From: Paraburkholderia caballeronis
GTDB lineage: Bacteria; Pseudomonadota; Gammaproteobacteria; Burkholderiales; Burkholderiaceae
Assembly (NCBI RefSeq): GCF_900104845.1
Contig: NZ_FNSR01000002.1
Location: 2,108,001-2,172,000 of the forward strand
Length of the DNA: 64,000 nucleotides
Direction of reading: 5' to 3'
Shown: in pieces, positions 43,517 through 62,975 of the stretch
Position numbering within the stretch: the first letter of the stretch is position 1
How the letters are laid out: each line of letters begins with the position of its first letter
The notes under the pieces: model-generated
Databases searched by the model: none
What the model saw: the letters and a program-made list of their open reading frames with translations, nothing else
What the model was told of the DNA's origin: nothing
Made by a program: the position numbers and the translations under genes

Positions 43517-43582
43517 GCGGCGCGCGCGCCGCTCTTACGTCCGCCGTCGCGGGCTCCCGATAACGAAAACGCTGGAACCATC

Positions 43583-47800: not shown

Positions 47801-48341
47801 CTTCCCGTTCGTCGGCGAATTGCAGACGAGCGGCATCGAGCTGACCGTGCGCAACGCGCTGGAGCCGTGGCACGTGATGGGCGAGGAAGGCTCGGTCGGC
47901 GGCACGGTGCGCTACGTCGATTCGTCGGTGGAGCGGCTGGAGGTGCGCGTGCTCGGGCTGAACGGCAACCGCCACGTGGTCACGGTGAACGGCGTGCCGC
48001 TGCCGCTGCAGCCGACCGGCCGGGTCAGCGAGCACGTGGCCGGGGTGCGGTTCCGTGCGTGGCGGCAGCCGTCGGCGCTGCATCCGACGATCGGCGTGCA
48101 CGCGCCGCTGACGATCGACGTCGTCGATACATGGAACGGGCGCTCGATCGGCGGATGCCAGTACCATGTCGCCCATCCGGGCGGGCGCAATTACCAGACG
48201 TTCCCGGTCAACGCGTACGAGGCCGAGAGCCGGCGGCGCGCGCGCTTCTTCACGATCGGGCATACTCCGGGTCCGCTCGTGCCGGCGCCGCGCGAGCGCA
48301 GCCTTGAGTTTCCGTTCACGCTGGACCTGCGCCACCGATGA
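44859..48341 (+). CDS. Transglutaminase-like protein fused to a DUF2126 putative amidoligase
   Basis: Large cytoplasmic protein (1160 aa). Residues about 1-80 are the bacterial transglutaminase N-domain (VALNHVTHYRYDRLVGLSPQ). Residues about 150-250 are the cysteine-peptidase-like core with a full triad: Cys180 in GSCRDSGW, His229 in LHAWCEV and Asp245 in LDPTSG. From about residue 300 to the end is DUF2126, described as a putative amidoligase, with LTMGGEPTFVSVRDRDAAEWN, GQGKWYPGEQLPRWALSLYW and GTGGGNHFVLGGATPPDSPFLRRPDLL. So one chain could both cut or transfer and ligate amide bonds. GTG start with GAGGAG six bases upstream. It has no signal peptide. Confidence 0.92.
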   Translation: MSIRVALNHVTHYRYDRLVGLSPQVVRLRPAPHCRTPIVSYSMRVEPEQHFINWQQDAFANYQARLVFPEPTREFKVTIDLVAEMAVYNPFDFFLEPSAEQFPFEYAPELAAELAPYLVRREPTPRFAAFVESIDRTPRKTIDFLVELNQRLQHEIRYLIRMEPGVQTPEETLANASGSCRDSGWLLVEALRQLGLAARFVSGYLLQLAPDTKALDGPSGTDVDFTDLHAWCEVYLPGAGWIGLDPTSGLLAGEGHIPLACTPEPGSAAPISGAVDECEVEFSHEMSIERVLETPRVTKPYTDDAWARVHEMGVQVDADLVAQDVRLTMGGEPTFVSVRDRDAAEWNTDALGPTKRGYAVALMDRLRARYGANGFLHIGQGKWYPGEQLPRWALSLYWRTDGQPCWHDPSLFADEREPAYHTSEDAERFIQHLAGKLALDTRFIRPGYEDTWYYLWRERRLPVNVDPFDSRLDDEMERMRLRRVFDAGLPSVTGYVLPLARANDVPMQPPRWVSGPWFFRDERMYLMPGDSPMGYRLPLDSLPWVSAADYPWQYAHDPFAPSQPLRSAAEMRMQYRGDGQPDASGDPTAAYRAPGWAGDGEGFGAPHAGSGTGTGTPAAADGRLPARGESASWITRTAICVEARDPARAAGPTAEADAFGSGRRLLHVFMPPLANLDDYLDLLAAVETTAADLGVKVIVEGYPPPRDARLKLLQVTPDPGVIEVNIHPASNWDELVDHTEYLYEAAHETYLSSEKFMLDGRHAGTGGGNHFVLGGATPPDSPFLRRPDLLASLVAYWHNHPSLSYLFSGLFIGPTSQAPRVDEARNDQVYELELAFRELQHQIDLLGGRGSATLPPWLVDRTLRNILIDVTGNTHRAEFCIDKLYSPDGPTGRLGLLELRGFEMPPHARMSLVQQLLLRALVARFWRTPYTTRLTRWGTELHDRFMLSTFVRMDFDDVLAELAEAGFAFEPQWFAPHFEFRFPFVGELQTSGIELTVRNALEPWHVMGEEGSVGGTVRYVDSSVERLEVRVLGLNGNRHVVTVNGVPLPLQPTGRVSEHVAGVRFRAWRQPSALHPTIGVHAPLTIDVVDTWNGRSIGGCQYHVAHPGGRNYQTFPVNAYEAESRRRARFFTIGHTPGPLVPAPRERSLEFPFTLDLRHR

Positions 48342-48343
48342 CC

Positions 48344-48376
48344 GGCTGCCGTTAACCCGTCGGCAGCCCCTTTTTT
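48344..48376 (+). terminator. Intrinsic terminator between the two ATP-grasp modules
   Basis: GGCTGCCG (48344-48351) pairs perfectly with CGGCAGCC (48361-48368) across nine bases, then CC and six T. It starts three bases after the previous stop and ends 15 bases before the next start, so it either insulates the two modules or attenuates read-through. Confidence 0.75.
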
Positions 48377-48391
48377 GAACACGATACGATC

Positions 48392-50980
48392 TTGAATCTC
48401 CAGTCCACCCTGCCGTTCGACATCCCCGCGCTGCATGCGCACGTGCCGCCGCGTCTGCCGGTGCCGGAAGGGCACTGGGACGAGATGCGCGACGCGTCGG
48501 GGCTGCCGCGCGAGTCGTGGCGGAGATTCTTCGATCTGCTCGGCGACGAAGGGATCGCGGGGCTCGACGTGGGCCTCGCGTCGGTCGCGCAGCAGGTGCG
48601 CGACAACGACATCAGCTACAACGTGTACGCGGACAACGGGCTGCCGCGCGCGTGGGCGCTCGACCTGCTGCCGTTCCTGATCGACGAGAGCGAGTGGGCG
48701 GAGATCGCGCACGGCGTCGCGCAGCGCGCGCGTCTGCTGAACGCGATCGTCGCGGACATCTACGGCCCGCAGACGCTGTTGCAGCGCGGGCTGCTGCCGC
48801 CCGCGCTGGTGTTCGGGCATCCGGGCTACCTGCGGGCGGTGAAGGGGTATCTGCCGTTCAACGGGCAGTTCCTGCAGATCGTCGCGATCGACCTCGCGCG
48901 CGCGCCCGGCGGCGAATGGACGGTGATCTCGCACCGCACCGAGGCGCCGTCCGGCCTCGGTTACGCGCTGGAGAACCGGCTGATCGTCGCGAGCCTGTTC
49001 GCGGAGCCGTTCCGCGAGATGTGCGTGTCGCGGCTCGCGCCGTCGTATTCGCAGCTGATCGCGACGCTCGCGGAAAGCGCGCGCCTGACGATGCGCGGCG
49101 GCGACAGCACCGACGGCGACCGGCGCGACTCGCCGCACATCGCGCTGCTCACGCCGGGGCCGTACAGCGAAACCTATTTCGAGCACGTGTTCCTCGCGCG
49201 CTACCTCGGCCTCACGCTGGTCGAGGGCAAGGACCTGACGGTGCGCGGCGACAAGCTGTACCTGAAGACGCTCGCCGGGCTCGAACGCGTGCACGCGGTG
49301 CTGCGCCGGCTCGACGACGCGTTCTGCGACCCGGTCGAACTGCGGCCCGATTCGACGATCGGCGTGCCGGGGCTGTTGCAGGTGATGCGCGCGGGCAACG
49401 TGATGGTCGCGAACGTGCCGGGCGCGGCGCTCGCGGAAACGCCCGCGCTGCACGGCTTCCTGCCGGCGATCTCGCAGTCGCTGCTCGGCGAGCCGCTCGC
49501 GCTGCCGACCGTGTCGACGTGGTGGTGCGGCGAGAAGGTCGCGCGCGACGAGGCGTTCGCGCAGCTCGACAGCGCGTACCTCCAGCCGACGTGGCCCGGT
49601 GTGCAGGGCAGCGTCGCGCCGGGGCTCGAAGTCGGCGAGCAGCGGCTCGAAAGCTGGCGCGAGCGCATCGAGCGGTCGCCGGACAGCTTCACGATCCAGG
49701 CGCCGCTGCCGTATTCGTGCGCGCCGCGCTACGACGGCGGCACGATCGGCGCGCGGCCGTCGGCGCTGCGCGTGTACGCGTTCGCCGGCCCCGACGGCAG
49801 CTGGAGCGTGATGCCCGGCGGCTTCACGCGGCTGGCGGCCGAGCGCCGCTCGACCGTGTCGATGCAGCTGGGCGGCAGCAGCGTCGACACGTGGGTGCTG
49901 TCGAGCCAGCCGGTGCCGTCGTTTTCGCTGCTGCCGTCGCCGATGAAGCCCGGCGACCTCGCGAAGCGCCGTCGCACGGTGGTGTCGAGCCGCGCGGCGG
50001 AGAACCTGTTCTGGGCGGGCCGCTACGGCGAGCGCGCGGAGAACAACGTGCGGCTGTGCCGGCTGATCCTCGGCTCGCTCGACGGTGGCGACGCGGACGG
50101 GATGTTCGACACGCTCGTCGAACTGGCCGCGCACAGCGGGCTGATCGCGCCGGCCGACAAGGTCGCGCGCAGTTCCGCGAAGGATTTCGAGGCCGCGCTG
50201 CTCGCCGGGCTGGGCGGCGCGACCGACGCGGGCGCCACCAGCATCGGCCAGAACCTCGCGAGCCAGGCGTACGCGTGCGGCGAGATTCGCGGCCGGCTCT
50301 CGACCGACCACTGGCGCACGGTGCTCGCCGCGCGCAACGACTTCCGCGACGCGCTCGACTGGATCGCTCGCGTCGGCAAGGGCGGCCGCTACGACCGCGT
50401 CGCGCTGATCGACGTGCTGGAGGCGCTGTCCACGCAGTTGTCCGCGATCAGCGGCGCGCAGGGCGACCGGATGGTCCGCGACGAGGCGTGGCGGCTGCTG
50501 TTCATCGGCCGCCACATCGAGCGCGTGTCCACCATGTCGATGTATCTCGGCGTCGTGATCGGCGAAGGGCGGCTCGCGAGCCCGGCCGCGTTCGAACTGC
50601 TGCTGCAACTGTTCGACAGCATCCTCACGTACCGGTCGCTGTATCCGGGCCGCCTCGAAGCGCCCGCGCTGCTCGACCTGCTGGTCGTCGATCCGGCGAA
50701 TCCGCGCGGGCTGTACGGCGTGTTCGACCGGCTGCGCAAGAAGCTCGGCGAAATACCGGCCGCGGCCGGCGTGCGCCGCGCGCCGCTGTCGGACCTGATG
50801 CCGGCCATCGACACGCTGCCGGACCTCGAACGGCTGTGCACGACCGATGCGGCCGGCGGTTATCCGGTGCTCGTGGAGGTCTGCGACCAGTTGGGCGCGT
50901 GCGTGGCAGCGGTGTCGAACGAGATCAGCGTGCGCCACTTCAGCCACGCGAATCCGTACGGCGCGGGAGGTGCGCAATGA
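48392..50980 (+). CDS. Fused circularly permuted ATP-grasp and alpha-E protein
   Basis: Cytoplasmic protein (862 aa) with the ATP-grasp half at about 1-500 (NDISYNVYADNGLPRAWALD, LLNAIVADIYGPQTLL, VISHRTEAPSGLGYALENR, LVEGKDLTVRGDKLYL, QLGGSSVDTWVL) and the alpha-E half from about 530 (SSRAAENLFWAGRYGERAEN). It is the single-chain counterpart of the separate genes at 42044 and 43583 and a diverged paralogue. The start must be the TTG at 48392: a stop lies 13 codons upstream in frame and no ATG or GTG occurs between. No clear ribosome site is seen, so translation may be weak. It overlaps the next gene by ATGA. Confidence 0.92.
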   Translation: MNLQSTLPFDIPALHAHVPPRLPVPEGHWDEMRDASGLPRESWRRFFDLLGDEGIAGLDVGLASVAQQVRDNDISYNVYADNGLPRAWALDLLPFLIDESEWAEIAHGVAQRARLLNAIVADIYGPQTLLQRGLLPPALVFGHPGYLRAVKGYLPFNGQFLQIVAIDLARAPGGEWTVISHRTEAPSGLGYALENRLIVASLFAEPFREMCVSRLAPSYSQLIATLAESARLTMRGGDSTDGDRRDSPHIALLTPGPYSETYFEHVFLARYLGLTLVEGKDLTVRGDKLYLKTLAGLERVHAVLRRLDDAFCDPVELRPDSTIGVPGLLQVMRAGNVMVANVPGAALAETPALHGFLPAISQSLLGEPLALPTVSTWWCGEKVARDEAFAQLDSAYLQPTWPGVQGSVAPGLEVGEQRLESWRERIERSPDSFTIQAPLPYSCAPRYDGGTIGARPSALRVYAFAGPDGSWSVMPGGFTRLAAERRSTVSMQLGGSSVDTWVLSSQPVPSFSLLPSPMKPGDLAKRRRTVVSSRAAENLFWAGRYGERAENNVRLCRLILGSLDGGDADGMFDTLVELAAHSGLIAPADKVARSSAKDFEAALLAGLGGATDAGATSIGQNLASQAYACGEIRGRLSTDHWRTVLAARNDFRDALDWIARVGKGGRYDRVALIDVLEALSTQLSAISGAQGDRMVRDEAWRLLFIGRHIERVSTMSMYLGVVIGEGRLASPAAFELLLQLFDSILTYRSLYPGRLEAPALLDLLVVDPANPRGLYGVFDRLRKKLGEIPAAAGVRRAPLSDLMPAIDTLPDLERLCTTDAAGGYPVLVEVCDQLGACVAAVSNEISVRHFSHANPYGAGGAQ

Positions 50981-51888
50981 GCGCCGGCGCGACGACCACG
51001 AACGACGCATCCGTGATGCTGGCGGTGTCGCACAGCACCACCTACCGGTATTCGACGCAGGTCGAGACCGCGCAGCATCTCGCGACGATCCGGCCGATCG
51101 AGTGCCCGTGGCAGCACGTGGTGAAGCACACCGAGCACATCGATCCCGCGCCGTCGTACCTGAAGAGCCGGCTCGACGCGTTCGGCAACGACGTGCTGTA
51201 TTTCTCGCTCGACACGCCGCACGACACGTTGCAGATGACGAGCGAGACGACCGTCGAACTGTCGCCGCGCTGGTCGTCGCTCGATCCGCACACGACGCCC
51301 GCATGGGAAAAAGTCGCGGACGCCTTGCGTTTTCGCGCGGGCGGCGGTTTCCGGCCGGAGTCCGAGTTCTGTTATGCGTCGCCGTACATCGTGCCGTCCG
51401 CCGCGTTGCGTGCGTATGCACTGCCGAGCTTCGCGCCGGGCAAGGCGCTCGTCGACGGCGCGATCGACCTGATGCACCGGATCCACGCGGACTTCGAATA
51501 CAAGCCGGCGACGACCGCGTTCGATACGCCGGCCGCGCGCGCGTTCGAGATGAAGAGCGGCGTGTGCCAGGACTTTTCGCAGGTGATGATCGGCTGCCTG
51601 CGCTCGCTCGGCCTGCCGGCCCGCTACGTGAGCGGTTATCTGCGCAACGACCCGCCGCCGGGGCAGCCGAAGCTGATCGGCGCGGACGCGTCGCACGCGT
51701 GGGTGTCGGTGCATTGCCCGGTCAGCGGCTGGATCGACCTCGATCCGACCAACGACGTGCTCGCCGATCTCGATCACATCACGCTCGCGACCGGGCGCGA
51801 CTATAGCGACGTGTCGCTGCTGCGCGGGATGATCCTCGGCGGCGGCGCGCATCAGGTCGAAGTGGGCGTCAGCGTGACCGCGGTTTGA
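50977..51888 (+). CDS. Transglutaminase family protein
   Basis: Cytoplasmic transglutaminase-like cysteine enzyme (303 aa). The N-domain begins AVSHSTTYRYSTQVETAQHL, and the triad is Cys197 in SGVCQDFSQ, His240 in DASHAWVSV and Asp256 in IDLDPTND. It resembles the N-terminal part of the large protein at 44859 but lacks the amidoligase domain. GGGAGG precedes the ATG, which overlaps the previous stop, so the two are translationally coupled. In this family the activity may be peptidase or amide transfer rather than protein crosslinking. Confidence 0.94.
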   Translation: MSAGATTTNDASVMLAVSHSTTYRYSTQVETAQHLATIRPIECPWQHVVKHTEHIDPAPSYLKSRLDAFGNDVLYFSLDTPHDTLQMTSETTVELSPRWSSLDPHTTPAWEKVADALRFRAGGGFRPESEFCYASPYIVPSAALRAYALPSFAPGKALVDGAIDLMHRIHADFEYKPATTAFDTPAARAFEMKSGVCQDFSQVMIGCLRSLGLPARYVSGYLRNDPPPGQPKLIGADASHAWVSVHCPVSGWIDLDPTNDVLADLDHITLATGRDYSDVSLLRGMILGGGAHQVEVGVSVTAV

Positions 51889-51934
51889 CGCGCGCGGAGC
51901 GGGGCATACCCCGGGGCAGGCTCCCGGGCGCGTC
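51887..51934 (+). terminator. Long GC-rich hairpin after the transglutaminase gene
   Basis: GACGCGC at the stop codon pairs with GCGCGTC at 51928-51934, and GGAGC with GCTCC inside it, with further GGGG-CCCC pairing in the loop. There is only a weak T-run (TCGTTCGT). It separates the ATP-grasp cluster from the sigma-factor operon. Confidence 0.4.
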
Positions 51935-51980
51935 TCGTTCGTAAGTGAAATGTAGGGTGGCGAGCGGTTTATTGCGCCAT

Positions 51981-51994
51981 CGTAATCTGTTACG
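51981..51994. promoter_or_regulatory. Dyad upstream of the sigma-factor operon
   Basis: CGTAA-TCTG-TTACG is a perfect short palindrome about 50 bases before the sigma-factor start, where a promoter should lie. GTAA-like sequence is common in -35 boxes read by ECF-type sigma factors, so autoregulation is possible but unproven. Confidence 0.35.
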
Positions 51995-52044
51995 CTGCAC
52001 GGCGCAGTGAGCGCAGTGCTCGATAATCAGACGAACAACAATAA

Positions 52045-52674
52045 ATGGACTACGGGGCTAATCTCGCCATTCGGCAACTGATTGCCGATCGCGTGCATTT
52101 TCGCGACTTCTTTCTCGCGTTGCGCAAGGACGTGTTTCGCGTGGCGCGCCGGCGTTTTCCGTGGGTGCGCGACGCGGACGTCGAAGAGTGCCTGCACGAA
52201 GCGGTGCTGTACGTGCTCGAAGGGCGCGGCGACTTCGACGTGCCGCCCGAGGTGCTCCACGACCGCACGCGGCTCGCGGCCCAACTGGGCGCTTACATCC
52301 GCAGCGCCGCCACTTACCGTTTGATCGATCGCCTGACCCGCCTCGGCCACGAGACGCGCGTGACGGTTCGCATCGACGACGACGAACACCCGACCGACCT
52401 GCTCGATGCGCTGCTTGCGCAGGCCGGCCATGTGCCGCCGTCGGTCGAAGGGGATATCGAGCGCAGGGAGCGGCTGCGGATTCTCGGCGACTGTTTGCTC
52501 CGCTTGACCGCGCTCGCGCGGCAGACGATCGAACTGGCGCTGCTCGGCCATAGCGACGTCGATATCCAGGTGGCGACCGGCGCGGGCTCGGCGGTCGCGG
52601 TGCGGCGGCGTATTTCCGAAACGAAAAACGTGCTCGCGCGCTGCGCGCAGTCGTCGCTGCGGAGCGCGGCATGA
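52045..52674 (+). CDS. RNA polymerase sigma factor, ECF-like
   Basis: Sigma-70 family protein (209 aa). Residues about 20-100 fit region 2 (FRDFFLALRKDVFRVARRRFP, ADVEECLHEAVLYVLEGRG, then GAYIRSAATYRLIDRLTR), and the C-terminal third fits region 4 with a helix-turn-helix (LTALARQTIELALLGHSDVD, IQVATGAGSAVAVRRRISETK). It is a diverged ECF-type factor. It starts an operon of five genes in which each stop overlaps the next start by four bases, and the next gene encodes a membrane anti-sigma factor, which supports the assignment. Confidence 0.85.
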   Translation: MDYGANLAIRQLIADRVHFRDFFLALRKDVFRVARRRFPWVRDADVEECLHEAVLYVLEGRGDFDVPPEVLHDRTRLAAQLGAYIRSAATYRLIDRLTRLGHETRVTVRIDDDEHPTDLLDALLAQAGHVPPSVEGDIERRERLRILGDCLLRLTALARQTIELALLGHSDVDIQVATGAGSAVAVRRRISETKNVLARCAQSSLRSAA

Positions 52675-53336
52675 ACGGCGAACCGACGACATTCGATACG
52701 CCGCGCGCCGGCGACGGACACGACGAACTCCTCGCGTATCTGCGCGGCGAACTGAGCCGCGAGCGGACCAGCGAACTCGCGCGCCGCCTTGCCGTGTCGC
52801 CGGCGCTGCGCGACGAACTCGCATGGCTGCGCGCAGCCGGCGAACTGGTGCAGGCCGAGCGGACCGACGCGAGCGCCGATGTTGCGTTTGCGAAACTCGA
52901 AGCCGCGCTAGCGCAATCGCCGGTGCTGAACCCGCGCGCGCGGCGCTCGTGGTTCGCGAAGCTCGGCGACCTGATGCGCGATTACATGCACGTGTTGCAG
53001 CCGGCGTTCATCGCGCTCGTCGTCGTGCAGACCGGCGTGATCGGTTATCTGCTGAACGTGGACGATCGCATCGAGAGTCCCGCCGTCGTGCGCGGCGGCG
53101 GCGCGTCGTGCTTCGACGTATGGATTACGCCGCGCGCGGACGTCAGCATCGGCTCGCTGCGCGACTGGGTGCTGCAATACGGCGGCTCGATCGCGGCCGG
53201 TCCCGATTCGCAGGGGCGTCTGCGCATCGCGCTGCCGGATCGCGACGCGTCGGCCGGCTTCGCGCACGACGCGGCGGCCGCGCGCATCGCGGAGCGCGTC
53301 GAGCGCACGGTGCAATGCGGAGCGGCCACCCCATGA
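52671..53336 (+). CDS. Membrane-bound anti-sigma factor
   Basis: Protein (221 aa) with three parts. Residues 17-60 form an anti-sigma helical bundle (DELLAYLRGELSRERTSELA, then LAVSPALRDELAWLRAAGEL) like RskA/FecR-type cytoplasmic domains but without the zinc Cys/His pair. Residues about 108-128 are one transmembrane helix. Residues 147-216 are a periplasmic domain bounded by Cys147 and Cys216, containing LRDWVLQYGGSIAAGPDSQG, the motif of anti-sigma tails. The next gene's product has a paralogous tail. The ATG overlaps the sigma-factor stop. It should hold the sigma factor at the membrane until a periplasmic signal releases it. Confidence 0.82.
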   Translation: MNGEPTTFDTPRAGDGHDELLAYLRGELSRERTSELARRLAVSPALRDELAWLRAAGELVQAERTDASADVAFAKLEAALAQSPVLNPRARRSWFAKLGDLMRDYMHVLQPAFIALVVVQTGVIGYLLNVDDRIESPAVVRGGGASCFDVWITPRADVSIGSLRDWVLQYGGSIAAGPDSQGRLRIALPDRDASAGFAHDAAAARIAERVERTVQCGAATP

Positions 53337-53761
53337 GCGCGAAACCGGCGGGGCTGATCGATGGCGCGGCGCGGTGGATCAACAGCAAGGCCGCGTTCGT
53401 GCTCGCGTTCATGCTGGTGCTCGCGGGACTCACGATGGCGCTCGGCCGCACGGCCGCGACGTTCGCCGGCGCGAACGGGCACAGCGCGACGCGCGGCGCG
53501 ACGGGCGGCCCGTGCGGCGAAGTGCTCGCGTGGTTCGAGCCGGACGCGCGGCTGAAATCGGTCGACGACTTCCTCACGCAGTTTGGCGCGACGATCGTCG
53601 GCGGCCCGGACGAAGAGGGTGCGTATCAACTGCACTTCGGCGCGCTGTCGCTCGACGACGCGTTGCGGGTCAGCGCGCATGCGCCGGCGTTCTCGCGCAC
53701 GCGCGCGAACGCGCGATGCACGGCCGCGGAGCCGTCCGTGCCGATCGGAAACGCGTCGTGA
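53333..53761 (+). CDS. Small membrane protein with an anti-sigma-like periplasmic domain
   Basis: Protein (142 aa) with one transmembrane helix at about 19-38 and a short cytoplasmic N-terminus that is too small to bind a sigma factor. Its periplasmic domain, Cys61 to Cys129, aligns with residues 147-216 of the anti-sigma factor: C-x-x-V, then FLTQFGATIVGGPDEEGAYQL against WVLQYGGSIAAGPDSQGRLRI, and Cys pairs 68 and 69 residues apart. It may compete with, or pair with, the anti-sigma tail. I know of no named family. It starts with an ATG overlapping the anti-sigma stop and ends in a GTGA overlap. Confidence 0.75.
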   Translation: MSAKPAGLIDGAARWINSKAAFVLAFMLVLAGLTMALGRTAATFAGANGHSATRGATGGPCGEVLAWFEPDARLKSVDDFLTQFGATIVGGPDEEGAYQLHFGALSLDDALRVSAHAPAFSRTRANARCTAAEPSVPIGNAS

Positions 53762-55467
53762 GCGCGGCCGCGCCGTTGCCGGCGGGCCGCGGTTCCAGCC
53801 GCTGGTTCGTCGAGGCGCTCGCCGCAGTCGTCGTCACGCTCGGCTGCGCGACCGAATACGTCGCGCTCGGCGCGCAGGCAACGTCCGCGCTGCCGGGCGC
53901 GCAGGCCGCCGCGTACGGCGTGCTGCTCGGCATCCTGACCGCGGTGATCGGCGTGCCGCTCGCGTCGCTGACGATCAGCACGCGGCCGATGATCTCCGGC
54001 CCGCGCGTCGCGTCGACGATCCTGATGTCGAGCCTCGTCGCGCGGCTGCTCGGCGACGGTTCGGCCGCGACGCTCGGCATGCGCGGGATCGTTGCGCTCG
54101 CGTGCTGCGCGGTCGTCGTCGCCGGTGTCGTGCAGCTTGCGCTCGGCGCGTTGCGCGGCGGCTCGCTGGTGCGCATGGTGCCGGCGCCGGTACTGTCCGG
54201 CTTGCTGTTCGGCGTCGCGGGGCTCGCGATGCAGGACCAGTTCGCGTTCGTCGCCGGCTGCGTGATCGACTGGCATGTCGCCGCGATCGGCATCGCGACA
54301 GTCGGCGTCGCCGCGCATTTCGGCTGGAAGATGCTGTGCCGGCGCGTCGCCCGGCGGGTCGCGCTGCCGCCCGGCCTGTCGCTGTTCGCCGCGCTGCTCG
54401 CGTCGGCCGCGTGTTATTACGCGGCGGTCGGCGTGCTGCCGTTGCCGCCGTCCACCTGCCGCCTCGTCGGCATCGCCGGGCTCGACCTGCATGCGTGGCG
54501 GCCGTTCGATGCCGGCGTGTGGCGCATGGTGGCGGATATTGCCGATGCGAAACTCTGGATCCTCGTGCTCGGTTATGGCGCGCTGATCGGCGTCATCTCG
54601 TCGATCGACACGGTGATCGCGGTGTCGAGCATCGAAGCGCAGACGCACCGGCGCGGCTCCGTCAATCACGATCTGCTCGGCTTCGGCGCGGTCAACGTGC
54701 TGCTCGGCGCGCTGACGCTGCTGCCGTGCGTCGGTTCGGTCACGCGCTCGGGGATGGCGATTGCGGCCGGCGCGCGCACGCGCGCGGTCGCGTGGCTGCA
54801 TGCGGCGCTGGTGCTGGTCGCGTTGACCGTCGGGCTGCGTTTCGTCGCGATGCTGCCGAAGCTGTCCGCGGCGGTCGTCGTGATCGCGATGTCGCTCGAC
54901 ATGATCGACGACTGGTCGAAGCAGCTCACGACGCTCGCGTTCAGCGACCGCGAGCCGCGCGGCGTGATCGGCGGCGCGATGTGGCTGTTCGCGGTCGAGG
55001 CGGCGGCGACGCTCGCGACCGGGCAACCGAGCATCGGTTTCGCGGCGGGCTGCGCGGCGGGCGTGCTGCTCGCGTGGCCGTCGCCGCGCACGCTCGCCGT
55101 ATCGTTCGCGCAGCGCGGCGATACGCTGGCCGCGAGCGCCGATGGCGCGCTGCTCTGCTACAACGCGGACACGCGGCTCGTTGCGCCGCTGCTGAAACGC
55201 ATCGACGCGGAGCCTGCGCCGGCCCGCGTCGCGCTCGACCTGACCGGCGTGCGGCGGATCGATGCGACCGCCTGCCGGGCGCTCGCGCAGTTCGACCGGC
55301 TGTGCACGATGCGCGGCGTCGAGTCGACGTTCGTGCTGCCGTCGTCGCGGAACGGCGGAGAGGAAGTTGCCGATGCGCTACGGCTTTTTCTGCGGCTCGA
55401 CGCGCTGAAATTTTCGGACGAACGCGGGGACGTCGAAGCCGGCACGCGCATGGAGGTATCGGCGTGA
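53758..55467 (+). CDS. SulP-like permease with a C-terminal STAS domain
   Basis: Inner-membrane protein (569 aa) with about 11-12 helices in residues 15-450 (ISTRPMISGPRVASTILMSS near residue 77 and the GVISSIDTVIAVSSIEAQTH segment, as in SulP carriers). Residues about 475-560 form a STAS domain: RVALDLTGVRRIDATACRALAQF, the anti-anti-sigma-type fold. SulP carriers take sulfate, bicarbonate or dicarboxylates; here the place between signalling genes suggests a sensor role. A GTG start overlaps the previous stop as GTGA. Confidence 0.85.
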   Translation: MSAAAPLPAGRGSSRWFVEALAAVVVTLGCATEYVALGAQATSALPGAQAAAYGVLLGILTAVIGVPLASLTISTRPMISGPRVASTILMSSLVARLLGDGSAATLGMRGIVALACCAVVVAGVVQLALGALRGGSLVRMVPAPVLSGLLFGVAGLAMQDQFAFVAGCVIDWHVAAIGIATVGVAAHFGWKMLCRRVARRVALPPGLSLFAALLASAACYYAAVGVLPLPPSTCRLVGIAGLDLHAWRPFDAGVWRMVADIADAKLWILVLGYGALIGVISSIDTVIAVSSIEAQTHRRGSVNHDLLGFGAVNVLLGALTLLPCVGSVTRSGMAIAAGARTRAVAWLHAALVLVALTVGLRFVAMLPKLSAAVVVIAMSLDMIDDWSKQLTTLAFSDREPRGVIGGAMWLFAVEAAATLATGQPSIGFAAGCAAGVLLAWPSPRTLAVSFAQRGDTLAASADGALLCYNADTRLVAPLLKRIDAEPAPARVALDLTGVRRIDATACRALAQFDRLCTMRGVESTFVLPSSRNGGEEVADALRLFLRLDALKFSDERGDVEAGTRMEVSA

Positions 55468-56873
55468 AGTGGATCGCCGGGTTCGTCCAGGCGCTGCTGG
55501 CAGGCGTCGCGTTGCTGCTGGTGCCGATCGGAAACAACGCGCAGGCTGCGGCTGCCGTTGCCGCGAGCGGCGGCAAAGTGGCGCTCGTGATCGGCAACAG
55601 CGGTTATGGCGGCGCGGATCGCCTGCTGTCGCCGGCCAACGACGCGAAGCTGATCGGCGATACGTTGAAGCAGCTCGGCTTCGATACGCGCGTCGATTAC
55701 GATCTGTCGCAGGACGAGTTCAACGCATCGGTCGACTGGCTTGCCGGACGCGCGCGCGGCGCGCGGGTCGTCGTGTTCTATTACGCGGGGCATGGCTTCG
55801 AATCCGGCGGCGACAATTTTCTGGTGCCGGTCAAGACGGGTTTCGCGATCAACGCGATGACGCGCCTCGATCTGCTCGAACATGCGGTGCGGCTGAATAC
55901 GGTGCGCACGCGCGTGAAGGCGGCGGGACCGGCCGCGTTCGTCGCGCTGATCGACGCGTGCCGCGTGCCGTCGCGCGGGCCGGGCGGCGCGACGCTGAAA
56001 CACGAGACGGTTGCGCGCGGCGAACTGATTGCGTTTTCGACGGCGGACCAGGCGTCCGCATACGATTCGATGCGCACGTTCGGCACGGCGGTGGACGACG
56101 GCCCCTTCGCCTATTACCTCGCGATGTACCTGAAAGCGCCTGACGCGACGATCAAGGGCGCGCTCGAACAGACGCAGCAGCAGGTCAGCGACCTGACGCT
56201 GGGGCGGCAGCGGCCGTGGATAGCGAGCGGCCTGCTCGGCGACGTGACGATGGCGCAGGCGTATGCGAGTCCGCTGCCGGCGCCGGTTGCGGCTGTGCCG
56301 CGCAGCGGGCCGACGCGTGGCGCAGCCACGGCGCCAGCCGCGGCCGACGACTGGCGCGCGGCGCCGAAGATCGGCGCGACGCCGTTGCCGCAAACGGCCG
56401 ACACTGCGGCGGACCAGCGTTCGGATTCGTGGGACGACGCGGAATACCGGCTTACGATGGCGTCGCAGCACGCGGACCGCGAGGACATCGCCGCGCTGCG
56501 CGCGCGCGGCGACGACCCGGCTGCGTTGACGACGCTCGGCATGATCTACGAGGGCGGCTTCGGCGTGCGCAAGGACTCGCGCACGGCCGTTGCGTATTAT
56601 CGGCGCGCCGCGCAGAAGAACTATCCGATCGCGCAGACGCTGCTCGGCGAGGTGTATTTCGAAGGCAAGCTCGTGCCGCGCGACTATCACGAAGCGGAGA
56701 GGTGGCTGGCCCGCGCGGCCGCGCAGGACCATACGCGCGCGAAGCTTGATCTCGCGCAGTTGCGTGCGGAGCGCGGCCAGGGCGACGCGACGCAGAACTG
56801 GGCCAACGCGATCTCGTTGATGATGAAGAGCGTGAGCCGGCAGAGCCAGCGTCCGCCGCCGCCGGCCGATTGA
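55464..56873 (+). CDS. Exported caspase-like peptidase with Sel1 repeats
   Basis: Peptidase C14 family protein (469 aa). The signal peptide is residues 1-28 (hydrophobic, ending NNAQA), so it acts in the periplasm. The caspase fold starts KVALVIGNSGYGG; the catalytic His110 is in FYYAGHGFES and Cys166 in LIDACRVPSR. A Pro/Ala linker follows, and residues about 350-440 contain Sel1-type repeats (LTTLGMIYEGGFGVRKDSRTA, then LLGEVYFEGKLVPRDYHEAE), usual for partner binding. A GTG start overlaps the previous stop, with GGAGG upstream. Caspase-like proteins cleave after Arg, Lys or Asp; the target here is unknown, but the neighbouring anti-sigma factors are candidates. Confidence 0.88.
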   Translation: MKWIAGFVQALLAGVALLLVPIGNNAQAAAAVAASGGKVALVIGNSGYGGADRLLSPANDAKLIGDTLKQLGFDTRVDYDLSQDEFNASVDWLAGRARGARVVVFYYAGHGFESGGDNFLVPVKTGFAINAMTRLDLLEHAVRLNTVRTRVKAAGPAAFVALIDACRVPSRGPGGATLKHETVARGELIAFSTADQASAYDSMRTFGTAVDDGPFAYYLAMYLKAPDATIKGALEQTQQQVSDLTLGRQRPWIASGLLGDVTMAQAYASPLPAPVAAVPRSGPTRGAATAPAAADDWRAAPKIGATPLPQTADTAADQRSDSWDDAEYRLTMASQHADREDIAALRARGDDPAALTTLGMIYEGGFGVRKDSRTAVAYYRRAAQKNYPIAQTLLGEVYFEGKLVPRDYHEAERWLARAAAQDHTRAKLDLAQLRAERGQGDATQNWANAISLMMKSVSRQSQRPPPPAD

Positions 56874-56886
56874 TGGACCGCTTCGC

Positions 56887-56905
56887 GGCGCGCGCAATGC
56901 GCGCC
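56887..56905 (+). terminator. Hairpin after the caspase-like gene
   Basis: GGCGCGC (56887-56893) pairs with GCGCGCC (56899-56905) across five bases, followed by a T-rich stretch that includes two TTTT runs. It lies 14 bases after the stop and ends the five-gene operon. Confidence 0.5.
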
Positions 56906-56967
56906 GTGCCTGCTTTTGCTGCTCTTGCTGCTTTTACTACCGTCGGCAGCGGCTAGTGGCTCCGCAG

Positions 56968-57321
56968 CTAGTCGCGATGGCGGCGCAGCCGCTGCGCGAA
57001 CGTTTCGACCCAATCCACCAGCATCTGCCTGTCCTTCTGCGACAGGCCCCGCAGGCTGCGCGCGATCGCGAGCGCCTGGTCGTCGGCGCGCGTCGATGCG
57101 CCGGTCAGCAACTCCTCGGTCGCGCAGCCGAACAGCTCGGCCAGCTCCGCGAGCCGCACGACCGTCGGTATCGCGGTGCCGCGCTCCACGCGCGCGACCG
57201 CCTCCCGGCCGAGCGACAACTGCTCGGCCACCTGCTCCTGGGTCAGCCCTGCCTCGACGCGCTTGCGCGCGATCGTGCGGCCAACGGTTTCGGCCAGCGC
57301 CTGCGCTTCTTCCCGTTCCAT
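56968..57321 (-). CDS. XRE-family helix-turn-helix regulator
   Basis: Small DNA-binding protein (117 aa). The Cro/C1-type helix-turn-helix is at residues 14-68: GRTIARKRVEAGLTQEQVAE, then LSLGREAVARVERGTAIPTV and LAELFGCATEELL. The rest is a short helical tail with AIARSLRGLSQKDRQML. The ATG at 57321 has AGGATGAGG upstream; a longer frame to 57372 or 57393 lacks a site. It is convergent with the caspase operon and divergent from an orphan gene. Target unknown. Confidence 0.88.
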   Translation of the reverse strand: MEREEAQALAETVGRTIARKRVEAGLTQEQVAEQLSLGREAVARVERGTAIPTVVRLAELAELFGCATEELLTGASTRADDQALAIARSLRGLSQKDRQMLVDWVETFAQRLRRHRD

Positions 57322-57628
57322 ATCCTCATCCTGTCGTGCTACTCGAATAGTCGCATTGCTACTTGTTGACATACAGGGTGCATTAGGTTTCAATGCGACT
57401 TTAAAGGTAGCATCGTGATGCCGCGCAACCTGCGTTTACACGTGCGATGCCACGCGCCGTTGCGCCGGTATCCGCTATCGGCGCGAACGCCGCAAAAAAA
57501 TTCGCGATGGGCCGAACAAATTTCCCTCCCGGACGAATACATCAGCAGAGCGAGACGGACCAACGTCGATCGCGGCGCGCGGCAGGGGCCGGCGCATCAG
57601 TCAGGCAAGAAACCGGGGCATAGAGAGA
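57322..57628. other. Spacer between XRE and an orphan gene
   Basis: A 307-base AT-richer stretch than the surrounding DNA, with several T and A runs near 57350-57420 where an XRE operator might lie. No clear dyad or gene is seen. The frame open across it is Arg-rich and unsupported. Confidence 0.4.
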
Positions 57629-57928
57629 ATGATGGAATCCATCGCGCTGCAATTCCTTCTGGATACCGTACCTTCGAATTTCCATTCCGATACCAACGTG
57701 TTCGTCGCCGGATGCTTCATCTGCCTCGCGTGGCCGCAGATCGAAATTTCCGGAGGCGAATTGAAAGTCGTCGTGAATTGCCCGCGCGATAAAGGCGAAT
57801 TCGCGCGCGACGACACACCGCTCATTCCTTTTCTGAAGTCGTTTCCGGACGTGTGTCTATCGATCGTCGAAGCGCATCCGGCGCTTCGGCAGTCTTTTCT
57901 CGAATATTGCGGATCCGTTTCGCGATAA
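57629..57928 (+). CDS. Hypothetical protein of low GC content
   Basis: A 99-residue protein (98 from the second ATG) that I do not recognise. It has a hydrophobic N-terminal half (SIALQFLLDTVPSNF, then NVFVAGCFICLAWPQIEI) and a charged middle, with Cys pairs. Codon use and base content are more AT-rich than its neighbours, suggesting a recent arrival. GAGAGAATG gives a reasonable start. It is divergent from the XRE gene and followed by a lipoprotein gene, with no known partner. Confidence 0.55.
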   Translation: MMESIALQFLLDTVPSNFHSDTNVFVAGCFICLAWPQIEISGGELKVVVNCPRDKGEFARDDTPLIPFLKSFPDVCLSIVEAHPALRQSFLEYCGSVSR

Positions 57929-58001
57929 ATCGGCGTGCCGGGTGTTTCCGGCCGAATAACGGCGGCACGCCTGTTTCCTACTCTAACCACGCGTTGACTA
58001 T

Positions 58002-59294
58002 ATGAAATTTGCGAGGACCACCTTCCTGTGCGTTAGCACGACCTTGTCGATCCTGCTCGCCGCATGCGGCGGAGGCGGCGGAGACAGCAGCAACGGCTCG
58101 CCGTCGTCGCCGGGCTCGGGCGGCACGTCGTCGGGCAGCACGAATGTCGCGCCGCTGCAGTCCGGCTCCAGCTATGTCGGCACCGTCGGTTTCGGCGACA
58201 CGATCCGCGTCGATCTCGACCAGCCGGCCGCGGGCCAGTTGACGCTCACGTTCGTGAATTCGCAGTTCGGCCTCGCGGGCCAGGTCGTCGGCCACTATCA
58301 GATCAGCAATACCAACCAGATCGTCGTGTCCGGCCTCGCGGCCGGCACCGGCTCGACGCTGTCCGCCGCGCAGGCGTCGGCGCTGTCACTGTCGTTGACG
58401 CTCGCGAAGGACAGCGGCGGGGCCGGCCTGCTGAGCGGCTCGCTGTCGAACGTGCCGAACCTGCTCGGCGGCGGCGGGCTGCTGCAAGGGCAGCTTGCGC
58501 TGACGAACAACGGCGTGACGACGCTCGCCGCGCTCGCGGGCACCTACAGCCTCGTCGCGCTGGACGGCGATTTCTCGAAGAACGGCGTGCCGGTCGGCGC
58601 GCAGTCCCCGGAGGCCGGGCAGGTGCGGATCAATGCGGACGGCACGTCGCGCTTCTGCTTCGGCAAGGCGTATTCGGACACCTGCACGAACCTCGACACC
58701 GACACGGGCGCGACGCTCGTCGATACCGCGACGTTCACGGCCGATCCGGATCAGACCACGTATCCGGGCGCGTTCGACATGACGGTGAACGGTCAGCTCA
58801 ACGGTCGCGCGTTCGTGACGAAGCAGGGCGGCAACACGACGCTGTTCATCGACCGCTTCGGCACGTCGCCGGAAGGCACGCCGCGCACCGGCTCGATGAT
58901 CCTGACGTCCACCCGCACGCTGAACAGCACCGACTACGACGGTCAATGGGTCTGCACGGAGCCGGACACGACGGTGAACAACGTGCTGACCGGCAAGGCC
59001 GACGTGGTCCCGTCGACGTTCAGCGGTCAGCAGATGTCGAGTACGGACGGCACGCAGCATACGCCGCTGAACTACAACTCGGCGTTCGATCTGGACACGG
59101 CCGTGCGCACCGGCGCGGACCCGGTGATCGTGCAGGGCGTCGACGGGCTGATCGCCGCGCAGATTCCGCTGCAGACCGAGAAGGAAACGACGCTGCTGCT
59201 GCCGGTGAACAACACGACGATGTACTGGCTCGACGAGCCGAACGGTTCGGGTTTCTTCGTGATGGGGCTGTGCAGCAGGCAGGCGGCTCAATAA
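58002..59294 (+). CDS. Surface lipoprotein of unknown function
   Basis: Predicted lipoprotein (430 aa). The N-terminus MKFARTTFLCVSTTLSILLAAC carries a lipobox LLAAC with Cys near residue 22, followed by a Gly/Ser-rich linker, as in outer-membrane or surface lipoproteins. The rest is low in charge, rich in Thr, Gly and Asp, and likely beta-rich, with repeated patterns such as LAGTYSLVALDGDFSKNG and GQVRINADGTSRFCFGKAY. Burkholderia has families of such proteins with no assigned role. It follows the low-GC orphan by 73 bases. Confidence 0.75.
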   Translation: MKFARTTFLCVSTTLSILLAACGGGGGDSSNGSPSSPGSGGTSSGSTNVAPLQSGSSYVGTVGFGDTIRVDLDQPAAGQLTLTFVNSQFGLAGQVVGHYQISNTNQIVVSGLAAGTGSTLSAAQASALSLSLTLAKDSGGAGLLSGSLSNVPNLLGGGGLLQGQLALTNNGVTTLAALAGTYSLVALDGDFSKNGVPVGAQSPEAGQVRINADGTSRFCFGKAYSDTCTNLDTDTGATLVDTATFTADPDQTTYPGAFDMTVNGQLNGRAFVTKQGGNTTLFIDRFGTSPEGTPRTGSMILTSTRTLNSTDYDGQWVCTEPDTTVNNVLTGKADVVPSTFSGQQMSSTDGTQHTPLNYNSAFDLDTAVRTGADPVIVQGVDGLIAAQIPLQTEKETTLLLPVNNTTMYWLDEPNGSGFFVMGLCSRQAAQ

Positions 59295-59550
59295 CCCAAT
59301 GACGACTGGCCGGCGTGCGGGCGAATCGAATGCCGCTCATGCATTCGGATTGAGCCGGCATGCCGGTCATGCGGAAAATGCGTATCAAATGGGCGCAATG
59401 AAATCGATTTAACGACGAATTCCGGATCGCTCGAAAACGATTCATTGGCCGGTGGCGACTCTTGTTCTGCGAGGCTCAGAGGCCAGAATCCCGCTCGATC
59501 AGAAAAAAAGCACAGTCATATGCCCGCGTCGTAACGCCGTCTGAATCGTT

Positions 59551-60588
59551 TCAGCGGACGCCGCGCCGCCGGAACGCCCACCACCCGGCGAGCGCGGTGA
59601 AGCCCGCGACCAGCACCACCATCAGCCAGAAGCCGTGCCGGTTCTCGGCGAACGGTATGCCGCCGACGTTCATCCCGAAGAAGCCCGCGACGATGTTGAT
59701 CGGCAGCGCGAGCACGGTCACGAGCGTCAGCGTGAACAGCGTGCGGTTGTTCTGTTCTTCGAGGCGCGCGGCGATCTCTTCCTGCAACAGCTTGATCCGC
59801 TCGACCAGCCCGGCCATGTCGCCGAGCACGAGCGAAAACTCTTCGGTCGATTCGCGCAGGTCCTGCACGTCGTGCGTATGCAGCCACTGCGGCGGCCGCG
59901 CCAGCAGCCGGAACACGGAACCCGGTTCCGGCGCGAGCATTCGCTGCAGACGCACCAGCATCCGGCGCATCGTCGAAAGCGCATGGCGGCTCGCATGGGT
60001 CTTCGACGCGAGAAACTGGTCCTCGGCCTGGTCCACGTCGATGCTCGTGCGGCGCACGATCTGCACCATCAGGTCGGCCTGATCGCGCATCAGGTGAACC
60101 AGCAGTTCCGCCGGCGAGCGAAACGTTTCACCGTCGCGGACGAAACCGCGCAGCTTGTCGATCGAGCGCAGCGGCTTCAGCCGCGCGGTCACGAGGATGC
60201 GCCGGTGCGTGTAGGCCCACAGCGTCGCGATCTGCGACGGGATCAGTTCGAAGTCGAACATCACGTCGTTGATGACGGCAAGCAATGCGCCGTCCAGTTG
60301 CTCGATGCGCGTCGAATGCGAGCCTTCGACCAGCGCCTCGAAGAACGAATCCGGCAGTTCCAGATGCGTTCTCATCCAGTGCTCGCTGGCCGCGTGCGCG
60401 AGATTGAAATGCAGCCAGAAGAATTCCTCGTCGCTCCCGCCATGGCTGCCGGGAGCGGAGCCGCGCAATGCGTCCACGACGTCGCTGGCGCTGACGGGCA
60501 TGCCGGGTTTGCCCGGCGCAAAACGAAAGCCGCATATCAGCCCGGACATGTCGGCGCCGTAGGCGGTGATGGTAGAGGAGAGATTCAT
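59551..60588 (-). CDS. zntB: Zinc/metal transporter, CorA family (ZntB-like)
   Basis: Inner-membrane pentameric channel-type carrier (345 aa). The soluble N-domain (residues 1-270) is typical of ZntB, with HWMRTHLELPDSFFEAL and FRSPAELLVHLM. Two helices end the protein and the loop between them has GMN in FFGMNVGGIPFAE, the CorA-family signature, with no MPEL-like change. ZntB carries Zn2+ by proton-coupled uptake in current models and was earlier called an efflux channel. The start MNLSSTITAYG at 60588 has no strong ribosome site. Confidence 0.9.
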   Translation of the reverse strand: MNLSSTITAYGADMSGLICGFRFAPGKPGMPVSASDVVDALRGSAPGSHGGSDEEFFWLHFNLAHAASEHWMRTHLELPDSFFEALVEGSHSTRIEQLDGALLAVINDVMFDFELIPSQIATLWAYTHRRILVTARLKPLRSIDKLRGFVRDGETFRSPAELLVHLMRDQADLMVQIVRRTSIDVDQAEDQFLASKTHASRHALSTMRRMLVRLQRMLAPEPGSVFRLLARPPQWLHTHDVQDLRESTEEFSLVLGDMAGLVERIKLLQEEIAARLEEQNNRTLFTLTLVTVLALPINIVAGFFGMNVGGIPFAENRHGFWLMVVLVAGFTALAGWWAFRRRGVR

Positions 60589-60983
60589 GGTCGTCTGGCC
60601 GCAGCGGAATTCATCGCGGAGCGAACAGGGCGCGGACACGAACGCCGATGCGGGCTGTCGCGGCGCGGCCCGGCAGGGCCGGCGCAACCGCTAGCCGCAC
60701 GGCATTCGGGGCCGATCCTGCGGTCTGCGGCAGTCTAGCATTCCAGGATGGCTTTTTCCATGCGTTCCCGGCGCTGCGGGAGATCGGGTTGACGATCGGA
60801 AAAAGCGCGCCCGCGCGGGCTGAACGGTCGTTTCCGATCGGGAACCCGGCGGCTTTGCGGAAGTTTCGAACCGGAAACGGACGGGCCGTTCGTTGGCGGG
60901 AGCGGGTTCCGCGGGTGCGGTCGGTCTGCCGGCTTTGGGCTGCGCGGCGTGTGGCCGCGTTGCTTCGATGCCGCGGATTCGGC
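60589..60983. other. 395-base spacer between zntB and the AraC gene
   Basis: This lies between two minus-strand genes. It has TTTCCGATCGG (60831-60841), another copy of the repeated motif, with a near-copy, ACGATCGGAA, just upstream. Two inverted repeats can be drawn but none is a clear terminator. No gene is supported; one long plus-strand frame across it is the antisense of the AraC gene. Confidence 0.4.
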
Positions 60984-61907
60984 TTACGCCGGGACAGGTT
61001 TGCCGGTGTCGTGGCGGTGATACAGCTTTCTCAACTCGCCGGCGTCGCGCTTCGGCGGCGTACCGAACATGCGTTTGTACTCGCGGCTGAACTGCGACGT
61101 GCTTTCGTAGCCGACCCGAAACGCAGCGTCGGTGACGTTGACGGCTTCGGTCGTCAGCAGGTTGCGGGCCTCCAGCAGCCTGAGCTGCTTCTGGTACTGG
61201 AGCGGCGTCATCGACGTGAGCGCCTTGAAATGCTGGTGGAACGACGAGACGCTCATCCGCGCGGCCGAGGCCAGTTGCTCGATGCGAACCGCCTGCGAAA
61301 AATTCTGCCGGAGTACGTAGATCGCATCGGCGATCCGCTGTGTATGGCCGTGCGGCGACACGAGCTTGCAGACCTCGCTGCCGTTCGCGCCGGTGAGCAG
61401 CCAGAAACAGACTTCGCGCATGATGCCCGGGTACAGGATCGGGATCGCATCGGGCATCGCGAGCAGCCGGACGAGCCGTGTCAGGCAGTCGATCAGCGGC
61501 GGCGTCAGTTCGTCGATGAAGAGTCCGAGGGTGCTGCTGCCGGCCATCGCGGGCGGTTCGTCGAGACGTTCCATCACGTCGCGCATCGTGCCGACGTCGA
61601 ACTCCAGCGTCAGCCCGATGAACGGCTCGCGCGTGCTTGCACGCGTGATGCCGCCGAATGCGGGCAGCTCGACGCTGACGACCAGCGCGTGCGCCGCCGC
61701 ATAGTCGAGCGTCGTGTCGCCGAGCGTCACCTGCTTCGCGCCCTGCACGACGACGCACAACGCGGGCCGGTAGATCATCCGCTGAGGCAGGACCTGTGTG
61801 GTGGACTTCATCAGCGCGAGGCCGTCGGCCGGCGTGACGAACAGGCCGTTGCCGCCGCCGTTCGCAGCGATGTAGTCGTCGCAGGCGTTTTTCAACGCGG
61901 ACAGCAT
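60984..61907 (-). CDS. AraC-family transcriptional regulator
   Basis: Regulator (307 aa). The N-terminal AraC_N-type domain includes QRMIYRPALCVVVQGAKQV and a cupin-like set of strands. The C-terminal DNA-binding domain has two helix-turn-helix units: IEQLASAARMSVSSFHQHFK, then VTDAAFRVGYESTSQFSREYKRMFG. The start at 61907 is chosen because GGAGAG precedes MLSALKN; the longer frame adds 12 residues. It is divergent from a pair of short-chain dehydrogenase genes and probably controls them. Confidence 0.9.
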   Translation of the reverse strand: MLSALKNACDDYIAANGGGNGLFVTPADGLALMKSTTQVLPQRMIYRPALCVVVQGAKQVTLGDTTLDYAAAHALVVSVELPAFGGITRASTREPFIGLTLEFDVGTMRDVMERLDEPPAMAGSSTLGLFIDELTPPLIDCLTRLVRLLAMPDAIPILYPGIMREVCFWLLTGANGSEVCKLVSPHGHTQRIADAIYVLRQNFSQAVRIEQLASAARMSVSSFHQHFKALTSMTPLQYQKQLRLLEARNLLTTEAVNVTDAAFRVGYESTSQFSREYKRMFGTPPKRDAGELRKLYHRHDTGKPVPA

Positions 61908-62923: not shown

Positions 62924-62975
62924 ATCGCGATAGATCGCCACGATTGCACAGAAAGACCCAACGAAGCGGACCATC

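Follow-up and report, generated by a model that had tools for sequence, protein, structure and literature searches.

What is a caspase-like protease doing in an operon with a sigma factor and a putative membrane anti-sigma factor? The question is raised by a locus of Paraburkholderia caballeronis (assembly GCF_900104845.1, a genome of 7.1 Mb in three contigs), which lies in a stretch of 64,000 nucleotides of contig NZ_FNSR01000002.1 (positions 2,108,001 to 2,172,000), here called the window, and whose named relatives belong to Paraburkholderia and Burkholderia. The five genes of the operon and a conserved Arg-Gly pair in the anti-sigma factor suggest a transmembrane switch, in which the exported paracaspase-like protease would be the site-1 protease of the anti-sigma factor, an explanation that we hold to be somewhat probable. 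The operon shows the following genes:

52045..52674, + strand: sigma factor of the extracytoplasmic function (ECF) type, 209 amino acids (TIGR02937, relatives)
52671..53336, + strand: putative membrane anti-sigma factor, 221 amino acids (weak family match, adjacency to the sigma gene, relatives)
53333..53761, + strand: small membrane protein TM3, 142 amino acids (transmembrane segment and anti-sigma-type periplasmic domain, homologues)
53758..55467, + strand: SulP/SLC26-type permease with a STAS domain, 569 amino acids (PF00916, PF01740)
55464..56873, + strand: paracaspase-like protease with Sel1 repeats, 469 amino acids (PF00656, PF08238)

Gene content and conservation of the operon

All five reading frames are open, the last two from GTG starts, and at all four junctions the stop codon overlaps the next start by four bases (ATGA, ATGA, GTGA and GTGA in gene order), which agrees with the initial annotation of this DNA. 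Its description of the five genes stands and is incomplete, as the Sel1 repeats of the fifth product had been missed; similarly, the third product is indeed a small membrane protein, and its paralogy to the anti-sigma factor, over the membrane and outer part of the latter, had been overlooked. The set does not end at 56873, where that annotation closed it, and runs on to 59294. Outside the window reading frames, genes were called with our own script, by which some were missed or shortened.

The sigma factor matches the ECF superfamily model TIGR02937 with an E-value of 1e-7 and 31.7 bits, below the cut-off of 42.9, and its match to the Pfam region 2 model is also below cut-off; TIGR02937 is matched at E ≤0.01 by 11 of the 13 aligned sigma relatives. 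The anti-sigma factor, whose gene adjoins that of the sigma factor, shows one transmembrane segment at about residues 112-130 according to a hydrophobicity script, an N-terminal part that presumably binds the sigma factor, and a periplasmic domain with invariant Cys147 and Cys216. Its match to the NCBIfam antisigma family is weak (E 0.0013) and is better in relatives, eight of 12 matching at E ≤0.1 with a best value of 7.4e-6. The protein database searched with P0002 alone returned the self-match only, and the profile search returned nine proteins including P0002. TM3 corresponds to an anti-sigma factor without the sigma-binding half, being paralogous to the transmembrane and outer half (hhalign E 6e-17 against the anti-sigma profile). 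Its gene adjoins the permease gene in every locus where it was read. When the PDB was searched with profiles of the sigma factor, the anti-sigma factor, TM3 and the lipoprotein, no useful match was obtained. The permease shows both domains expected of a SulP permease, as had been annotated: Sulfate_transp (PF00916; E 5.5e-24, 85.1 bits against a cut-off of 23.2) and STAS (PF01740; E 3.4e-5, 24 bits against a cut-off of 22.6).

To study the distribution of the genes, the genus was represented by 144 genomes. The sigma factor (E ≤3.1e-20) was found in eight, two weak matches being left out of the count (G014, E 3.4e-4; G155, E 5.0e-4), and the caspase subfamily (E 1e-25) in exactly the same eight. 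The permease subfamily (E 1e-40) was found in six, all of them sigma-positive; it is absent at this threshold from G096 and G158, which contain sigma factor, anti-sigma factor, caspase and a lipoprotein encoded downstream of the caspase. This lipoprotein (E ≤1e-140) is present in 11 genomes, the eight sigma-positive ones together with G102, G134 and G165, in a count that leaves out 71 genomes whose matches were all weak, at E 5e-7 or worse, and for the most part short and N-terminal. In one genome search, matches weaker than E 1e-60 were left out (48 of the 53 matching genomes). The probability of such an overlap with the sigma factor by chance is below 1e-8 for each gene if the genomes are taken as independent, which they are not. 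Because the permease subfamily is absent from G096 and G158, the permease and TM3 are an accessory pair, and the core consists of sigma factor, anti-sigma factor, caspase and lipoprotein.

The gene set is conserved in a group of soil bacteria, with several arrangements. The five genes are consecutive in the window and at two further loci (L045 and L046), while L044 and L049 show sigma, anti-sigma and caspase genes without the permease gene. At L048/L059 these three genes are together, with TM3, permease and a second caspase nearby, and in G002 and G135 the caspase gene is divergent from the sigma/anti-sigma genes and the TM3-permease pair is found about 8 kb away. Since the five-gene order recurs in two further genomes and the linkage of sigma factor, anti-sigma factor and caspase in others, the order is not due to chance. 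When species genomes were scanned with the lipoprotein profile, 11 loci were found. Six of them contain the lipoprotein together with caspase, sigma factor and anti-sigma factor; the two of Burkholderia aenigmatica/LMG 13014 show no more than the caspase and the lipoprotein (one of these loci ends at a contig edge), and in three the lipoprotein stands alone. The initial annotation had named the comparison of gene neighborhoods as the test that could overturn it, and it came through: order and linkage recur in relatives, and the caspase is paired with a sigma/anti-sigma pair both in the same eight of 144 genomes and, in a divergent version, in two other genera.

Catalytic residues and Arg-Gly sites

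The fifth gene product scores 101.1 bits against Peptidase_C14 (PF00656, cut-off 21.4), which, with its His/Cys pair, places it in family C14 and confirms both its caspase-like nature and the intact pair annotated at first. Besides this domain it contains two Sel1 stretches (PF08238). The N-terminus is hydrophobic and was read by eye as a Sec signal, so that the protein is probably exported to the periplasm. The residues of interest in the three proteins are:

55641..55643, + strand: Asp60 of the caspase, predicted acid of the S1 pocket (invariant in 12/12 relatives, aligned with a MALT1 Asp)
55791..55793, + strand: catalytic His110 (invariant in 12/12 aligned relatives)
55953..55955, + strand: Asp164, predicted acid of the S1 pocket, two residues before Cys166 (invariant in 12/12; available part of PMC4357240)
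55959..55961, + strand: catalytic Cys166 (invariant in 12/12 aligned relatives)
53091..53096, + strand: Arg141-Gly142, proposed caspase cleavage site in the anti-sigma factor (15/15 type A proteins; aligns with type B and TM3)
53492..53497, + strand: Arg54-Gly55, proposed caspase site in TM3 (12/12 homologues read)
56316..56321, + strand: Arg285-Gly286 in the caspase-Sel1 linker, possible self-cleavage site (linker Arg in 20/20)

When solved structures were searched with the caspase-domain profile, MALT1 chains were the closest (E about 1e-19), followed by caspase-1 (4e-5), and no metacaspase was among the 55 structures matched. The MALT1 Asp aligned with Asp60 is taken by us to be alpha-1 Asp365. 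By sequence, Asp60 and Asp164 would form the acidic S1 pocket expected of C14B enzymes that prefer a basic P1 residue; a counterpart of MALT1 Glu500 was not located. According to the available part of PMC4357240, Asp365 and Asp462 (with Glu500) are responsible for the arginine specificity of MALT1, and the pocket proposed for the trypanosome metacaspase TbMCA2 consists of Cys92, Asp95, Ser156 and Asp211. MALT1 is also almost entirely restricted to Gly at P1-prime, its natural substrates being cleaved at Arg|Gly (available part of PMC6207715). Among plasmid records, six showed distant caspases only, none of them spanning 80% of the query.

The anti-sigma factors related to that of the window, here called type A, were represented by nine loci and six database proteins, the latter close to some of the nine. 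All 15 show the Arg-Gly pair, always six residues before the first outer Cys. The linker that contains it is variable in its other positions, and the pair follows the predicted membrane segment at a distance of roughly 10-20 residues. For seven representative linkers, the product of the per-linker chances of containing any Arg-Gly is 2e-5, and two of 20000 joint shuffles had the pair in all seven. In the caspases of this subfamily that were read, the linker shows Arg in 20/20 and Arg-Gly in 19/20; this count leaves out L208, L242 (which ends at the locus edge), second copies in G135 and G098 (contig C9) and one in G467 (contig C63). As a control for the anti-sigma linker we used 25 weak-sigma loci, 19 of which have a transmembrane gene directly downstream; Arg-Gly was found in two of the 19, in the C-terminal tail of both, although the control is poor as many of the 19 are probably not single-pass anti-sigma factors. 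Four caspases of other kinds were also read: L214 shows no Arg-Gly, the second copy of L212 shows it only far downstream (484), L213 has it at 282, roughly 60 residues past the domain, and the repetitive sequence of L217 allows no judgement.

When 249 genomes of the family were scanned for Pfam C14, blind to Arg-Gly and after the idea of cleavage had been formed, a second, divergent sigma/anti-sigma pair (type B) came to light in two other genera, g48 and g35; the latter may be Ralstonia. The type B sigma factor passes the Pfam region 2 cut-off (32.8 against 24). In g48 (G298 and G264), sigma, anti-sigma and caspase genes are together, and in g35 the sigma/anti-sigma genes lie about 8 kb from a TM3-permease-caspase operon in five places of four genomes (G253, G301, G344 twice and G359). 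The alignment of the anti-sigma profiles of both types (E 4e-13, 20% identity) places Arg-Gly on Arg-Gly. The 13 type B anti-sigma factors come from 12 of the 249 genomes: the linker that follows the membrane segment contains Arg-Gly in all ten from the nine C14-bearing genomes and lacks it in the three from genomes without a C14 match (G223, G191 and G354; p 0.0035, uncorrected for kinship). For L234 there was no local alignment, and the linker was judged by reading the sequence. This tracking of Arg-Gly with the caspase is the strongest single test in favor of the predicted cleavage, with caveats on the three Arg-Gly-free cases that are taken up below. In G354 (L241), His stands in the position of the linker Arg, the anti-sigma gene was found without a sigma gene as its neighbor and the genome has no C14 gene; it looks like a decayed copy.

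A second family of exported caspases was observed in other genomes of the genus (L124-L132). It shows a conserved RGI(L/M)PKD stretch and a recurring cluster with short peptides, the leaders of which end in AVRGG or similar, and the caspase there might process these peptides. By eye, the neighbors resemble genes for a kinase, for an enzyme of the formylglycine type and for an outer-membrane efflux protein.

Downstream genes and a promoter-like motif

Downstream of the caspase gene, the window shows four further features:

56968..57321, - strand: XRE-type helix-turn-helix protein (PF01381), between the caspase and lipoprotein genes in a subset of loci
57513..57539, + strand: CGAACAAA-N14-GAATA, proposed target of the sigma factor, the only exact match in the window genome
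57629..57928, + strand: small protein of 99 amino acids, between the motif and the lipoprotein gene (no Pfam family matched)
58002..59294, + strand: lipoprotein of 430 amino acids, with a lipobox-like N-terminus by eye (no Pfam family matched)

The XRE gene product is 72-80% identical, and the small protein 61-66% identical, in four of the 18 loci searched. The lipoprotein gene is beside the system in all eight sigma-positive genomes of the genus, and we propose the lipoprotein as a target of the sigma factor and a member of the core set. Extra local genes in other genomes encode zinc-ribbon membrane proteins, a thioredoxin-like protein and further lipoprotein-like products.

The two-block motif, CGAACAAA followed by GAATA, was first noticed at seven sites by visual inspection. 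In 372 kb that were then scanned (19 sequences including the window), there were 15 exact matches and five with one mismatch, all 20 outside script-called genes, and none was found in three mononucleotide shuffles. Nine of the exact matches are upstream of a lipoprotein gene, with a small gene between in some, five precede accessory zinc-ribbon/membrane genes and one precedes a thioredoxin-like gene; the six lipoprotein-only loci of the scan showed no match. Across the 144 genomes, the eight sigma-positive ones contain 16 exact matches, every one within 13 kb of the sigma gene, and 36 of the 136 sigma-negative ones contain 40; the reversed control pattern gave 29 matches in the 144 genomes, two of those in sigma-positive genomes. 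Its position and co-occurrence suggest that the motif is the promoter of this sigma factor.

The motif was not found before the sigma gene or the main caspase gene, and therefore these look like pre-set machinery and the lipoprotein operon like output. A promoter common to the sigma and lipoprotein genes was not found by eye; the sigma genes of the close group have a different extended -10-like stretch in common. In G002 and G135 no motif lies between the divergent caspase and sigma genes, so the caspase looks like a regulator rather than a target. In P. ferrariae (L059, 13052-17353, - strand), a thioredoxin-like gene, the second caspase, TM3 and the permease stand in a row behind a copy of the motif.

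Several other observations concern the lipoprotein and the surroundings. Homologues of the lipoprotein at L056, L058, L138, L139 and L140 are without this sigma factor or caspase nearby, and at these five loci a divergent gene for a related protein of about 380-400 amino acids adjoins, perhaps as a different regulatory partner. Pararobbsia silviterrae (L060) has three lipoprotein gene copies in tandem, and the P. susongensis lipoprotein gene (L044/L053) contains one in-frame TAG stop. Directly upstream of the operon, positions 42044-51888 of the window contain genes that look by eye like an alpha-E / ATP-grasp / transglutaminase-like cluster, with no link to the operon seen.

A proposed transmembrane switch, its alternatives and its relatives

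In the mechanism that we propose, the membrane anti-sigma factor would hold the sigma factor while the co-produced exported caspase waits in the periplasm. A signal, sensed perhaps through the Sel1 repeats or through the outer domain of the anti-sigma factor with its two conserved Cys, would lead the caspase to cut the anti-sigma factor between Arg141 and Gly142, on the outer side and about ten residues from the membrane. In the RseA/RseP pathway, site-1 cleavage is usually followed by site-2 and cytoplasmic steps, and here too a site-2 protease of the RseP type and cytoplasmic proteases would finish the anti-sigma factor and free the sigma factor. The latter may then turn on the lipoprotein operon and other local envelope genes via the CGAACAAA-N13-15-GAATA promoter. 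TM3, an anti-sigma factor minus its sigma-binding part, would be a second substrate, tying the protease to the neighboring SulP permease, and self-cleavage in the linker at Arg285 may bring about the maturation of the caspase. The initial annotation had supposed a relay gated by the caspase or by the STAS permease: action of the caspase on the anti-sigma factor gains support from an Arg-Gly pair that is conserved, rightly placed and matches the MALT1 site, whereas the permease, absent from G096 and G158, is not needed for the core set.

Several findings weigh against this mechanism. When linkers of 20 residues are shuffled, Arg-Gly arises by chance in 10-29% of cases, and 18 of 21 control caspases have Arg-Gly within 80 residues after the domain, because most of them belong to the exported RGI(L/M)PKD family. 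The type B proteins have Arg-Gly elsewhere too, for example in the outer domain, the caspase linker of the type B genome G264 shows Arg-Ser, and in G319, G339 and G364 (g35) the caspase gene is far from the sigma/anti-sigma pair or on another contig. The three Arg-Gly-free cases are not clean losses, G354 being a truncated remnant and the other two distant homologues that by eye are zinc-finger-like. The assignment of the anti-sigma factor rests on weak family matches, six of the 16 motif sites in sigma-positive genomes served to define the motif (the other ten did not), and nine type B loci scanned for it gave a single match, with one mismatch. Arg-Gly may instead be a structural turn beside the outer domain, kept for folding or membrane placement, the caspase substrates lying elsewhere. 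The homology of the anti-sigma and TM3 outer domains fits this, as Arg-Gly may there be one inherited feature and count only once as evidence, but its absence from the linkers of the three homologues from caspase-free genomes and the same pair in the unrelated caspase linker make it an unlikely explanation.

The caspase may also be an effector instead of an activator. Under cell stress it would act, together with the lipoprotein and permease, against intruders or on the envelope, while DegS-type or other proteases control the sigma/anti-sigma pair. The second P. ferrariae caspase gene follows a gene that bears the motif, which makes it an apparent target, caspase-like proteins of bacteria often act as effectors, and there is a weak PADLOC caspase match (E 2.3e-5); yet the main caspase gene is co-transcribed with the sigma/anti-sigma genes or divergent without the motif, and the linker Arg-Gly tracks caspase presence, for which reasons we regard such a role as rather doubtful. 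Sensing by the permease is less probable still. Here SulP/STAS would bind TM3, whose outer domain blocks or exposes the anti-sigma factor, and the caspase would be secondary; TM3 adjoins the permease wherever read and has its outer domain in common with the anti-sigma factor, and within the genus the permease subfamily occurs in sigma-positive genomes only (six of eight). The two genomes that keep sigma factor, anti-sigma factor, caspase and lipoprotein without this permease at E 1e-40 indicate, however, that the switch does not need it. Anti-phage defence was also considered and set aside, its sole pointer being the PADLOC match.

Cleavage of the anti-sigma factor by the caspase can be carried one step further. 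TM3 contains Arg-Gly and its gene adjoins the permease gene, so that the protease may have transport as its second output. It is possible, and as yet a tentative proposal, that a new class of ECF switch has a periplasmic paracaspase as its dedicated site-1 protease, with two membrane substrates of the same design, the anti-sigma factor for transcription and TM3 for SulP transport.

The proposed switch resembles the RseA/DegS/RseP envelope-stress pathway in its ECF-type sigma factor, putative single-pass membrane anti-sigma factor and predicted proteolysis starting on the outer side (PMC8103513, available part, and otherwise general knowledge), and differs in that the site-1 protease would be a caspase-family cysteine enzyme of the same operon and not the serine protease DegS. 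In type III-E CRISPR, Csx29 cuts Csx30 and frees CASP-sigma (PMC10028731, available part), so that in Cas7-11/Csx29/Csx30/CASP-sigma, as proposed here, a caspase-fold protease relieves a sigma factor of its inhibitor; Csx29 is a TPR-CHAT protein triggered by target RNA, whereas the window protein appears to be exported and shows Pfam C14 and Sel1 repeats. A link to CRISPR was not supported, as no array-like direct repeat was found in 50000-60000 and the fifth product matches C14 and not CHAT (cas genes were not searched for); a tandem-repeat search of 44000-64000 gave no array either.

The initial annotation had held a caspase in such a place to be new, and the novelty is lower than that: in 2012, four of five Myxococcus xanthus metacaspases and others, including Ralstonia, were reported in operons with sigma-70 factors. 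In its available part that account (PMC3501461), like ours, has a caspase-family gene in an operon with a sigma gene, and it describes co-operonic occurrence only, naming no anti-sigma site, promoter motif, lipoprotein or permease. ECF54 (CHAT, subtilase or carboxypeptidase neighbors) is similar in that proteases are predicted to control the ECF sigma factor (PMC8999054, available part), but it is defined by the lack of an anti-sigma factor in its context, and here an anti-sigma-like gene overlaps the sigma gene. MALT1 is the closest solved relative by sequence and has in common the two S1 acids and the candidate Arg|Gly sites (PMC4357240 and PMC6207715, available parts); it is an animal multi-domain protein with death and Ig-like domains, unlike the window protein with its export-like N-terminus and Sel1 repeats. 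An exact-term search of open-licence PMC papers gave no report of a periplasmic caspase-family site-1 protease among the matches listed, which is weak evidence of absence.

To our knowledge, caspase relatives are common in bacteria and we know of hardly any substrates for them. Here one caspase has a named protein, bond and promoter as candidates, in a pathway whose first protease is often unidentified. If the proposal is true, a caspase-family cysteine protease would join the site-1 enzymes, a SulP permease would be linked to sigma control, and Arg|Gly recognition of the MALT1 type would be a very old regulatory code, common to the bacterial envelope and animal immune signalling. Confirmation would make it a signalling switch of a kind new in bacteria, one that works from the outside inwards.

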